Assembly (NCBI GenBank): GCA_021156365.1
Contig: JAJNDK010000012.1
Coordinates: 1-64,000, forward strand
Length of the DNA: 64,000 nt
Direction: 5' to 3'
Source of the DNA: Bacteroidota bacterium
GTDB taxonomy: Bacteria; Bacteroidota; Bacteroidia; B-17B0; Aurantibacillaceae
Positions 46,540 through 52,845 of the stretch are shown here, in pieces. The position numbers and the translations under genes were made by a program. The notes under the pieces were generated by a model. The model was given only the letters and a program-made list of their open reading frames with translations, was not told the DNA's origin and ran no database searches. Position 1 is the first letter of the stretch. Each line of letters starts with the position of its first letter.

Positions 46540-46573
46540 TTGTAAATAATAAGGCCGTATTGGGTTACTTTTG
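46540..46573 (+). promoter_or_regulatory. Promoter of the sigma/anti-sigma-protease operon
   Basis: TTG (46540-46542), 23 bases, TACTTTTG (46566-46573), 33 bases before the sigma ATG at 46607. The housekeeping-type match suggests basal expression; autoregulation by the ECF sigma cannot be excluded. Confidence 0.6.
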
Positions 46574-46606
46574 CAATGAAACAGTATTAAAAGCACAGAT
46601 CAGGGT

Positions 46607-47182
46607 ATGGCTGCCAAAAGGCAAATCACCGATAAGGAGTTTATAGAAGGATTGAAGAACAGTGATGAAGTACTGCTTTCAGCCCTTTATAAAAAGTATT
46701 TTTCCGTGGTGTTGAAATATGTGCTGAATAATAACGGTACAGAGCAGGAAGCGCAGGACATTTACCAGGAAACGATCATCGTTCTTTACAATAATGCACG
46801 AAAACCGGGTTTTGAGCTCAGCTGTGCTATACAAACGTATATCTATTCGGTAGCACGCCGTTTGTGGCTAAAGCAGCTGAATAAGCACAGTCACGTATTC
46901 AAGCTGACAGATAGCTCGGATGAAGATGGAACTCTGACAGATGTGAGCACAGAAGCAGAGGAGCATGAGGAGAAAGAAAAGCAGTTGTTGAAAATGACCG
47001 AAAGCCTTGAAGGTTTGGGAGAACCGTGTAAAACACTGATTGAAGATTTTTATATACGGCGTCTGAACATGGAAGCGATCTCGGAGAAATTCGGGTACAC
47101 GAATGCAGACAATGCCAAAAACCAAAAATACAAATGCCTTCAGCGACTGAAGCGTTTGTTTTTTAATGAAGAAGGAAAATGA
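46607..47182 (+). CDS. ECF-type RNA polymerase sigma factor
   Basis: 191 residues. Region 2: EEVLLSALYKKYF-like start (SDEVLLSALYKKYFSVVLKYV), EAQDIYQETIIVLYNNARKP and IQTYIYSVARRLWLK. The linker is acidic (DSSDEDGTLTDVSTEAEEHEE). Region 4: LGEPCKTLIEDFYIRRLNMEAISEKFGY and NAKNQKYKCLQRLKRLF. The last codons overlap the next gene (ATGA at 47179-47182), so the sigma factor and its fused anti-sigma-protease are made from one message. Confidence 0.93.
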   Translation: MAAKRQITDKEFIEGLKNSDEVLLSALYKKYFSVVLKYVLNNNGTEQEAQDIYQETIIVLYNNARKPGFELSCAIQTYIYSVARRLWLKQLNKHSHVFKLTDSSDEDGTLTDVSTEAEEHEEKEKQLLKMTESLEGLGEPCKTLIEDFYIRRLNMEAISEKFGYTNADNAKNQKYKCLQRLKRLFFNEEGK

Positions 47183-48270
47183 GAAATACAGATCTATTTG
47201 ATGATTACCTGATGGGTAATCTGAATGCAGAAGAGAAGAAACAGTTGGAGAACCGTTTGCAGGGAGATGCTGAATTAAAAGCAGAGTTCGGCAGGCACAA
47301 AAAATTCGTTGAGACACTTCAATACAACGTTGCGAAAAATACACTTAAATCAAAACTGAAAGACATTCATACTGCTGAGTTTGGTGCCAATAACATTAAA
47401 CACATCAACAGTCATAAATCCTTTTTCGAGCGTTATATCAAACCTACCGGGTTTGCAGCGAGTGTGGCTGTGATAGCTGTGGTGCTTACGATCACTTCCC
47501 TGAGTATGGGCGGTTACCTGCTCAAGAAGCAAAATTCTGAAGTGGAAGAATTAAGTAAAAGGGTAGAATATGTAGAGAATAAGCAGGATGGATTCATGCA
47601 GGGCGTTAAGGCGGCGATTGTAAAAAACAAGAAAAAGATCCTTGCTCCTGCCAATACCACCGGAAGTGGTTTTGCTATTAACTCCAAAGGCTATTTTGTT
47701 ACCTGCCTGCACATTGTTCGCGGAAGCGATTCTATTTTCATTGGCAACAAATCCTTTGATTATGCCAGTGCAAGGATTGTATATACCGACACCAAACTGG
47801 ATATCGCTATATTAAAACTGGACAGCAGCGCATTGATGAGCCTGAACTGGAATGAACTGCCTTATGCGTTTAAAGCATCGGAAAGCGACCTGGCCGAAAA
47901 AGCATTCACTCTCGGATATCCGTCGCAGGATATTGTGTATGGTGAAGGAACCATTTCTTCTTCCACACGTATGGGAGATACTGCCATGTACCAGATATCT
48001 ATTCCTGTGAATGAAGGAAACAGCGGTGGTCCGCTGATCGATGAACAGGGAAATGTGATAGGTGTAATCAACAGTAAAAAAACCAATGCCGAAGGAACAG
48101 GTTTTGCAGCCAAATCAAGCTACCTGGCAGAGATCCTGAAAGGTATTGAAGACGAAGACCTGAGAAAAGAACTGACATTGAACAAGCGCAACAGCATTAA
48201 AGGCCTGAAACGCAGCGAACAGGTAAAACGTATTACTCCGTTTGTGTTCAATGTATATGTTTACAAATAA
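47179..48270 (+). CDS. Anti-sigma factor fused to an HtrA/DegS-like trypsin-fold protease
   Basis: 363 residues, overlapping the ECF sigma gene by 4 bases. The N-terminus is anti-sigma-like: LFDDYLMGNLNAEEKKQLENRL, read in parts DDYLMGNLNAEEKKQLE and LQGDAELKAEFGRHKKFVE (about 5-48), without the zinc motif. One membrane helix follows at about 92-114. The rest (about 155-325) is an S1C trypsin fold: GSGFAINSKGYFVTCLHIV (His178), TKLDIAILKLD (Asp208) and PVNEGNSGGPLID (Ser282), all three catalytic residues present. No PDZ domain. With N-terminus inside, the protease faces the periplasm. This is an RseA-like part and a DegS-like part in one chain. The function, release of the sigma factor by (self-)cleavage, is inference. 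Confidence 0.88.
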   Translation: MRNTDLFDDYLMGNLNAEEKKQLENRLQGDAELKAEFGRHKKFVETLQYNVAKNTLKSKLKDIHTAEFGANNIKHINSHKSFFERYIKPTGFAASVAVIAVVLTITSLSMGGYLLKKQNSEVEELSKRVEYVENKQDGFMQGVKAAIVKNKKKILAPANTTGSGFAINSKGYFVTCLHIVRGSDSIFIGNKSFDYASARIVYTDTKLDIAILKLDSSALMSLNWNELPYAFKASESDLAEKAFTLGYPSQDIVYGEGTISSSTRMGDTAMYQISIPVNEGNSGGPLIDEQGNVIGVINSKKTNAEGTGFAAKSSYLAEILKGIEDEDLRKELTLNKRNSIKGLKRSEQVKRITPFVFNVYVYK

Positions 48271-50345: not shown

Positions 50346-51698
50346 ATGAAAACAAATAATCCTATCATCGACAACATCTTAGATGTTCAATCTCAGACAA
50401 TTAACAATTGGATTGAGTCTACTCAAAAATTCCAGAAAGCTTTCACTGGCGGAAGCATTGCACAGGAAGGTCAGCACATTTACAAAGACTGGATGGACAA
50501 ACAAACCACTCTTTTCAATGGTATGCAGGCAAATCAGGCAGCAGACGCTACTTCTTTCGGTAAACCTGAAGAATTCTTCAAAAACTGGTACACCCAGCAA
50601 ATGGACGGCATCAAAAAAATGACCGATTTCAACCAAAGTATCTACAGCAGCTTTGCTAACTACGGCAAACCGGCTAATGAGTACATCAATCATTTCACAG
50701 GCGCGAACACCGCATGGACAAACATCTATAACAACTGGATGAACACGCTGAATAACTCTTACAGCACATTCATGAAAAACATCCCGAACTCAACCAACCA
50801 GGATGCTTTCAAAAACATGTTTGAGACCAGCCAAATGTACCTGAAACTGCAGGAGTTCTGGCAACCGGCTTTCAAATCATTCCAAAGCGGTGATTTTTCT
50901 GCTGATACTTTCAAAACGTATCTGAAACCAGAGGCTTACAAGCAACTGACGGAGCAAATGTTCGGTAACATGTTCAACACAGCGAACATGAAAGATGTAT
51001 TTGATGCTTCTATCAAAAAGATCCAGGAGTTCTTCAGCACTAACAACAATCTGTCTAAAGAATATGTTGCACAAATGCAGTCGATCGCAAAAAATTTCCC
51101 TGGTCTGATCAGCGGTGATTTTGCAAAGGTATCCGAGTTGTATAACAACGTAAACAATGTATTTGGAAAAACGTTCGAACCATTGATGAAACTGGCTACT
51201 CCGGGCAAAGAAAAAGAAACGATCGAAGCAAACATCGCTTTGCTGGATAAGATCTCCGAATACTCTGTGAAACAAACGGAAATGCAATACCATTTCTATG
51301 TTACTGCTCAAAAAGCAATGGAAGCAGCAGCTCAGAAAGCATTCGCGAAAATGGATCCTTCCAAAACGAATGAGATCCAGGGATTCAATGAATTCTATAA
51401 CGAGTGGATCAAAACAAACGAAGATTTCTATACTACCCTGTTTGCATCTGACGAATTCTCCAAGATCAAAGGCGAAGTAACAAATATCGGTATGGATGTA
51501 AAATCTCATTTCGAAAAACAATTTGAGAATGTGTTCGGTGTATATCCGGTTGCTTTCAGAAGCGAAGTGGATGAACTGACCAAAACGATCCACGATCTTA
51601 AAAAACAGGTAAAAGCCCTTGAAACGCGTTTAGCGGCAATGGGTGCGGCAAATGTAGAGCTGGATGAAGAAGATAAACAAAGCCGCAAAAAGAAATAA
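50346..51698 (+). CDS. phaE: Class III PHA synthase accessory subunit PhaE-like
   Basis: 450 residues, almost fully helical, rich in Asn, Phe, Lys and Gln. Repeated aromatic-rich segments (WMDKQTTLFNGMQA, EEFFKNWYTQQMDGIKKM, YNEWIKTNEDFYTTLF) and the C-terminal coiled part EVDELTKTIHDLKKQVKALE, read as TKTIHDLKKQVKALE, are what PhaE/phasin-like subunits show. It is about 90 residues longer than the PhaE of purple bacteria. It precedes phaC and would stabilise it on the granule surface. Well-codon-biased gene, probably strongly expressed. Confidence 0.85.
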   Translation: MKTNNPIIDNILDVQSQTINNWIESTQKFQKAFTGGSIAQEGQHIYKDWMDKQTTLFNGMQANQAADATSFGKPEEFFKNWYTQQMDGIKKMTDFNQSIYSSFANYGKPANEYINHFTGANTAWTNIYNNWMNTLNNSYSTFMKNIPNSTNQDAFKNMFETSQMYLKLQEFWQPAFKSFQSGDFSADTFKTYLKPEAYKQLTEQMFGNMFNTANMKDVFDASIKKIQEFFSTNNNLSKEYVAQMQSIAKNFPGLISGDFAKVSELYNNVNNVFGKTFEPLMKLATPGKEKETIEANIALLDKISEYSVKQTEMQYHFYVTAQKAMEAAAQKAFAKMDPSKTNEIQGFNEFYNEWIKTNEDFYTTLFASDEFSKIKGEVTNIGMDVKSHFEKQFENVFGVYPVAFRSEVDELTKTIHDLKKQVKALETRLAAMGAANVELDEEDKQSRKKK

Positions 51699-51727
51699 TT
51701 TGCCGGTAATTTTTTGAATTTCTACAG

Positions 51728-51780
51728 AGAGCCGCTCATCATCCTGAGTCAACCAAAGGAAAAGAGCGGCTCTTTTGTTT
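51728..51780 (+). terminator. Terminator-like hairpin between phaE and phaC
   Basis: 10-bp perfect stem AGAGCCGCTC (51728-51737) with GAGCGGCTCT (51764-51773), 26-base loop, then TTTGTTT. Placed in the 97-bp gap before the phaC ATG (51796). It probably makes most transcripts end after phaE, giving more accessory subunit than synthase. Confidence 0.75.
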
Positions 51781-51795
51781 AATACAATAAGAGAA

Positions 51796-52845
51796 ATGGA
51801 AAATACAATGCTGAAAGAGATCGCTGATGTAAATCAGAAAATGGTGAAGAGCTTTGATACGCTCTCCCAGATCCATGAGATCGAGATTGCAAGCACGCCC
51901 AAAACGGAAGTGTATGCAGAAGATAAGCTGAAATTGTATCGTTACAACAGGGATACGGAAGCAACATTGAAAACACCAGTGCTGATCGTGTACGCATTGG
52001 TCAATACGTATAAAATGCTGGATATTCAGCCGGACAGGAGTTATATCCAAAACCTGCTGGATCTTGGAATGGATGTGTACCTGATCGATTGGGGCTATCC
52101 TACCAAAGCGGATCGATACCTGAGCATGGATGATTATGTGAATGGTTACATCAACAATTGTGTAGACGTGATCCGTAAAAAGAACAAAGCGGATAAGATC
52201 AATATAATCAGTATCTGCCAGGGTGGAACGTTGAGCATTATCTATTCTGCTTTGCATCCGAATAAGATCAAGAACCTGATAACACAGGTAACACCGGTTG
52301 ATTTTGAAACGAATGACGGACTTTTGTTCAAATGGGCGAAAGACATGGATTTCGACAAGCTGGTGGATGGCAATCATGGATTGATCCCGGGAGAATTCCT
52401 GAACGAAGGATTTGCCATGCTGAAACCGATGATGAAATTCCAGAAACAGCAGTCTTTGCTGAACAGCATCGATAACAAAGATAAGCTCCTGATGTTCCTC
52501 CGTATGGAGAAATGGATCGCTGACAGTCCTGATCAGGCAGGTGAATGTTTCCGCCAGTTCATGAAAGATCTATACCAGGGAAATAAATTAGTGAAAGGCG
52601 AACTAAATGTAGGTGGCAAAAAAGTGAACCTGAAAAATATTACGGCTTCCGTACTGAATATATATGCAACGGAAGATCACCTTGTACCTCCTGCCGCTTC
52701 CAAAACCTTTACCGGTTATCTGAGTGTAAGCGATAAGGAAGATGTGGCTTTCAAAGGCGGACACATCGGTGTGTTCGTAGGGAGTAAATCGCAAAAAGAG
52801 CTGGCTCCGAAAGTGGCAGACTTTTTGAAGAACAGGGATAAGTAA
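51796..52845 (+). CDS. phaC: Class III poly(3-hydroxyalkanoate) synthase subunit PhaC
   Basis: 349 residues from ATG 51796; an upstream TTG in the same frame overlaps the hairpin and is less likely. Alpha/beta-hydrolase fold: LIDWGYPTKADRY, lipase-box SICQGG with catalytic Cys141, Asp294 in ATEDHLVPP, and His323 in GGHIGVF. The spacing equals that of the class III synthase of Allochromatium (Cys149, Asp302, His331). It polymerises (R)-3-hydroxyacyl-CoA into storage polyester. Partner PhaE lies upstream. The Ser at -2 of the nucleophile, not Gly, is mildly unusual. Terminator follows. Confidence 0.93.
   Translation: MENTMLKEIADVNQKMVKSFDTLSQIHEIEIASTPKTEVYAEDKLKLYRYNRDTEATLKTPVLIVYALVNTYKMLDIQPDRSYIQNLLDLGMDVYLIDWGYPTKADRYLSMDDYVNGYINNCVDVIRKKNKADKINIISICQGGTLSIIYSALHPNKIKNLITQVTPVDFETNDGLLFKWAKDMDFDKLVDGNHGLIPGEFLNEGFAMLKPMMKFQKQQSLLNSIDNKDKLLMFLRMEKWIADSPDQAGECFRQFMKDLYQGNKLVKGELNVGGKKVNLKNITASVLNIYATEDHLVPPAASKTFTGYLSVSDKEDVAFKGGHIGVFVGSKSQKELAPKVADFLKNRDK

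Follow-up and report, generated by a model that had tools for sequence, protein, structure and literature searches.

An ECF sigma factor operon conserved in Bacteroidia encodes an anti-sigma-type protein fused to a PDZ-less S1C protease domain, a putative built-in site-1 protease

In the window, that is, the whole stretch of 64,000 nucleotides analyzed here (assembly GCA_021156365.1, contig JAJNDK010000012.1), a gene for an ECF sigma factor overlaps a gene whose single product joins an anti-sigma-type N-terminal module, one membrane helix, and an S1C (HtrA-type) protease domain. Judged from its distribution, this sigma/fusion pair is no lone build: as a system, it is conserved across Bacteroidia. 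We favor, with some reserve, a stepwise proteolysis like that of RseA in which the fusion supplies its own site-1 protease, freeing the sigma factor for a lipoprotein regulon. The complete version of this model, in which the anti-sigma factor is at once substrate and protease, is inhibited by its own C-terminal tail, is cut in cis or between copies, and controls a lipoprotein regulon throughout Bacteroidia, is put forward more tentatively, as a proposal about which we are nearly evenly divided.

The sigma factor gene (positions 46607 to 47182, plus strand) codes for 191 amino acids that match the sigma70-ECF family TIGR02937 over residues 24 to 183 (E value, 6e-18) and Pfam Sigma70_r2 over residues 27 to 95 (E value, 6e-8), with the ECF composition, which includes regions 2 and 4 of sigma-70 and lacks regions 1 and 3. 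The fusion gene (47179 to 48270, plus strand) codes for 363 amino acids, and the ATGA at 47179 to 47182 provides both the stop codon of the sigma gene and the start codon of the fusion gene, a 4-base overlap. Overlapping genes, an N-terminal module, and one membrane helix are the layout of membrane-bound ECF anti-sigma factors. The initial annotation had already read the product as one chain composed of an anti-sigma N terminus, a membrane helix, and an S1C domain, and this reading holds, given the Trypsin_2 match, the helix at residues 92 to 110, and the behavior of the N-terminal domain at 12 of 12 paralogous loci, all described below. Slightly downstream, at 50346 to 52845 of the window, there are phasin-like and polyhydroxyalkanoate synthase-like genes, as judged by eye from their translations.

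About 70 further genomes show the same arrangement, which rules out an annotation artifact or a chance fusion. A relative of the fusion was found in 61 of the 62 good-quality genomes of the source family, nearly always full length and with 33 to 68% identity, and in about 59 of 395 Bacteroidia genomes of the class sample; the source order offered no further family. No full-length match was found in any genome outside the class Bacteroidia in the phylum sample, nor in a tblastn search against plasmids. An ECF sigma gene lies on the same strand in 70 of 74 distinct loci, with a spacing that goes from a 58-base overlap to a 94-base gap, while the four loci without a visible sigma gene comprise one at a contig edge and three secreted S1 proteins lacking the anti-sigma part. 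Wherever the sigma gene could be scored it precedes the fusion (70/70), which, together with the overlap of the genes, upholds the coupling proposed at the outset, and the fusion adjoins all 42 sigma orthologues scoring above 140 bits in the class sample. Only 15 positions are invariant among 71 fusions, 13 of them in the protease domain and the other two Ala93 and Ala94. Three loci of one family with large genomes (L049, L050, and L073) code for a fusion without the first ca. 42 residues of the anti-sigma domain, with sigma gene and promoter present, and any mechanism must account for this loss.

The S1C domain occupies residues 159 to 320 (47653 to 48138), as supported by Pfam, AF2, and Foldseek. 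Trypsin_2 matches residues 162 to 296 (E value, 1.7e-21), and the complete triad reported earlier is indeed present in the window, with H178 in VTCLHIVRG (codon at 47710 to 47712), D208 in DTKLDIAIL (47800 to 47802), and S282 in NEGNSGGPL (48022 to 48024). The AF2 model of the domain, built from 43 sequences, reached a pLDDT of 84.7 and a pTM of 0.84, and its best solved structures in Foldseek were HtrA1 and DegS-deltaPDZ, so that the two-barrel fold, the His-Asp-Ser triad, and the GNSGGP motif of S1C proteases are all found here. Among the NCBIfam protease families, MarP gives the highest match, at a score under its cutoff. Both the triad and the glycines of the oxyanion loop are invariant in 71/71 aligned fusions, which argues that catalysis matters in the fusion, without pointing to a substrate.

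The absence of a PDZ domain noted by the initial annotation was also confirmed, as the Pfam scan found none and the NCBIfam HtrA and DegS models match their protease part alone. In place of the C-terminal PDZ of DegS, the fusion has a tail (residues 321 to 363; 48139 to 48267) with the conserved pattern R..QIK.I..yVF.V.VY, in which, according to the model, a helix (345 to 355) and a last strand (356 to 362) close the domain. This tail belongs to a subgroup of S1 proteins and not to the fusion alone, as secreted S1 proteases of Bacteroidia have the same one. Since the S1 paralogues without a sigma gene combine Sec-type signal peptides with this tail, the domain family works outside the cytoplasm. 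Three relatives (L070, L071, and L072) resemble only the protease part, being secreted S1 proteins that have neither a sigma gene nor an anti-sigma part, and Bacteroidia proteins of 550 to 600 amino acids also carry the S1 domain with the same helix-strand tail.

Between the two ends of the fusion there is one strong membrane segment (residues 92 to 110; 47452 to 47508; mean hydropathy, 2.18), conserved in 70 loci. The flank before the helix has a mean of 3.5 Lys plus Arg versus 1.8 after it, a positive-inside bias that favors an N-inside topology. The helix opens with X-Ala-Ala in 71/71 fusions (VAA in 44, IAA in 16, MAA in 6, FAA in 2, AAA in 2, and YAA in 1; F92-A93-A94 at 47452 to 47460 in the window), and apart from these two alanines no residue outside the protease domain is invariant. 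RseA carries the same motif as V106-A107-A108-C109, and RseP cuts it between A108 and C109 (PMC4597795), while the XAA ends in RsgI membrane helices are recognized by ClpXP (PMC12203970). The site-2 protease that the initial annotation said should be looked for exists in the source genome, as an RseP orthologue (TIGR00054, 176 bits). An invariant XAA is to be expected of an RseP/ClpXP substrate, and we predict that the motif marks both the region of site-2 cleavage and a ClpXP degron; the two alanines at the start of the helix could instead reflect packing. The periplasmic linker that follows (residues 111 to 158; 47509 to 47652) is largely helical, with a helix at 119 to 147 in a low-confidence AF2 model, and is the predicted site-1 region. 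It measures 35 to 58 residues in all sigma-linked loci, so that after a cut within it the remaining tail would be comparable to the one that DegS leaves on RseA (about 30 residues), and we saw no conserved motif in it that would mark a scissile bond.

The N-terminal domain (residues 1 to 70; 47179 to 47388) has no match in Pfam and only weak anti-sigma matches in NCBIfam. Direct homology to RseA was rejected, as it is undetectable by hhalign (probability of 0.4%, no significant match) and by HMM (score of 2.6 bits), and the PDB profile matches to human PPAR chains (E value, 0.006) were taken as a chance helical similarity. The AF2 model, based on two sequences, has helices at residues 3 to 11, 17 to 29, and 31 to 68, with a pLDDT of 65 to 82 up to residue 40 and of 37 overall. 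A profile of the domain was also run against all 82 ORFs at 12 paralogous ECF sigma loci without the fusion, one of them from the source genome. It matched exactly 12 ORFs, with 22.6 to 43 bits against 4.1 bits for the next best, and each of these is the gene directly after the paralogous sigma gene, with a membrane segment (weak in L230, at 1.3) and a C-terminal part other than the protease. The domain is thus a module that travels with ECF sigma factors, and we infer that it binds and holds its neighbor. The weak family matches would also suit a domain that is no anti-sigma for the neighboring sigma factor, in a membrane protease that is merely co-operonic, but with the module in the next gene at 12/12 paralogous sigma loci and a strict co-occurrence of sigma factor and fusion, we regard this explanation as very improbable.

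The promoter of the operon is well conserved as well. A predicted autoregulated ECF promoter precedes the sigma gene, with a -35 element GGGTTAC at 46562 to 46568 and a -10 element GTATTAA at 46584 to 46590 (both on the plus strand), the latter 16 nucleotides before the start codon. The pattern GGTTAC-N15/16-GTATTAA or a close variant was found upstream of the sigma gene in 65 of the 70 orthologous loci, versus 0.2 expected by shuffling. Its strict form occurs once in the 5.3-Mb source genome, before the sigma gene, while the looser form GGTTACNNTTN11-12GKATWAA has three sites there (one in the control) and 155 over 87 genomes of the family (22 in the control).

The three looser sites of the source genome precede the sigma operon and two lipoprotein genes. 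One of these matches (G000:C7:488469-488497, minus strand) lies 26 bases before the gene for a 77-amino-acid, alanine-rich lipoprotein with a CGPS lipobox (L083:1241-1474), and the other (G000:C16:609877-609905, plus strand) is upstream of a DUF4349 lipoprotein (L084:1614-2630; Pfam E value, 4.8e-22). Both targets recur in genomes of the family, either beside the operon or elsewhere: small lipoproteins like the CGPS one follow the promoter across the family, some in tandem (L042 to L044 and L047), and the pairing of promoter and DUF4349 lipoprotein is seen in many relatives (L095, L099, and L119 to L128). A divergent copy of the promoter faces the neighboring gene in 24 of the 70 loci, nearly always a lipoprotein gene of 60 to 90 codons, and at some loci there are two or three copies in tandem, all of them with a promoter of their own. 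With the sigma factor assigned by synteny, we read this pattern as probable autoregulation plus a small lipoprotein regulon, a predicted set unlike the classical sigma-E regulon. A one-mismatch match (G000:C1:311194-311222, minus strand) was also found 14 bases before the gene of a DUF2459 membrane protein (L080:776-1486), which is followed by a possible lipocalin-like lipoprotein.

The mechanism that we favor would run as follows. At rest, the cytoplasmic N-terminal domain would hold the sigma factor until some envelope signal switches on or unmasks the S1C domain in the periplasm. This domain would then cut the linker in its own or in a neighboring copy. RseP is thought to act only once a large periplasmic domain has been removed (PMC8144685), and with the bulky domain lost it would cut within the membrane helix, at the XAA motif, after which ClpXP would remove the XAA-tagged anti-sigma fragment. 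The freed sigma factor would transcribe its own operon, the small CGPS lipoproteins, and the DUF4349 lipoprotein. The fusion, its linkage to the sigma gene, the intact triad, the anti-sigma-type module, the invariant XAA, and the shared promoter are read directly from the genomes, whereas sigma binding, the trigger, self-cleavage and the place where it occurs, and the steps of RseP and ClpXP are parts of the proposed model.

The protease of the fusion could, however, act on other proteins, with another enzyme making the site-1 cut. The S1C domain might be a sensor of ligands or peptides whose change of shape exposes the chain to a different periplasmic protease (DegP/DegQ type, Prc, or signal peptidase), as site 1 of RsiV is cut by signal peptidase (PMC7593790), the S1C-like domain of RsgI9 is reported to bind polysaccharides (PMC12203970), and the source genome has another HtrA-type protease (G000:C7). 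In a pure binder one would expect triad and oxyanion loop to have decayed here and there, but they are invariant across many families, and we consider a sensor unlikely, if worth keeping in mind. Another reading is that the S1C domain mainly cleaves other substrates in quality control and that the anti-sigma domain reports its occupancy, the sigma factor being released without self-cleavage. The same S1 domain and tail in secreted stand-alone proteins and in the others of 550 to 600 amino acids would fit such a role; coupling free of cleavage through a single helix is harder to picture and the invariant XAA points to intramembrane proteolysis, so we give quality control a rather small chance.

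Each step of the self-cleavage mechanism is known elsewhere. Like the sigma-E/RseA/DegS/RseP system of Escherichia coli, the pair has an ECF sigma factor beside a single-pass anti-sigma factor, a periplasmic HtrA-type protease, an operon predicted to be autoregulated, and a membrane helix with an XAA in the corresponding position (VAA108|C109 in RseA). Unlike DegS, which stands alone and has a PDZ domain, the protease here is PDZ-less and part of the anti-sigma chain; the predicted regulon is a few lipoprotein genes, homology to RseA is not detectable, and no RseB-like gene was found beside the operon. Stand-alone S1C proteases of the MarP type are also membrane anchored and PDZ-less. MarP spans the membrane several times and lacks an anti-sigma domain. 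BlaR1 and MecR1 combine sensor and protease in one membrane protein that cleaves itself on signaling (PMC7593790), but their protease is a cytoplasmic metalloprotease that acts on a repressor, with no sigma factor involved.

A further comparison is RsgI9 of Clostridium thermocellum, which also has an anti-sigma domain, one membrane helix, and an extracytoplasmic S1C-like domain, and with the RsgI anti-sigma-I factors the fusion shares the XAA motif and, by inference, the RseP and ClpXP steps. RsgI9 is an orphan of the SigI/RsgI family of Bacilli and Clostridia and cleaves itself with a separate periplasmic domain of the SEAL type, its S1C-like domain being the reported polysaccharide binder (PMC12203970). 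The fusion shows no family match to an RsgI N-terminal domain or a SEAL-type domain, its partner is an ECF sigma factor and not SigI, and its linker has 35 to 58 residues only. RsgI9 is a partial precedent, which shows that the S1C-like domain of an anti-sigma factor can instead be its sensor, and the initial statement that no system of this build had been described was too strong. In the literature searched we found no description of a PDZ-less S1C domain that is combined with an ECF sigma factor and this lipoprotein regulon and dispenses with a separate site-1 protease, and an earlier listing among ECF groups is possible.

In a previous survey, only 6% of the Bacteroidetes ECF sigma factors had a class I anti-sigma domain in their vicinity (PMC7406223). 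For one abundant sigma/anti-sigma group of Bacteroidetes there is now a visible anti-sigma module, a promoter, a likely regulon, and a built-in protease, and the switch that turns on a few envelope lipoprotein genes in many Bacteroidia probably brings along the protease that releases it. If self-cleavage is true, no separate site-1 protease is needed to set off regulated intramembrane proteolysis, in a two-gene, readily transplantable system whose triggering step could be addressed by single mutations.

The protease is one of several outputs attached to this anti-sigma-type module, to judge from the different C-terminal parts at the paralogous loci. The locus from the source genome (L229; G000:C19:122600-125600) codes for a paralogous ECF sigma factor followed by an anti-sigma-type protein of 700 amino acids, of which more than 600 form a C-terminal part that includes a cytochrome c-like CAVCH motif and runs to the end of that locus.
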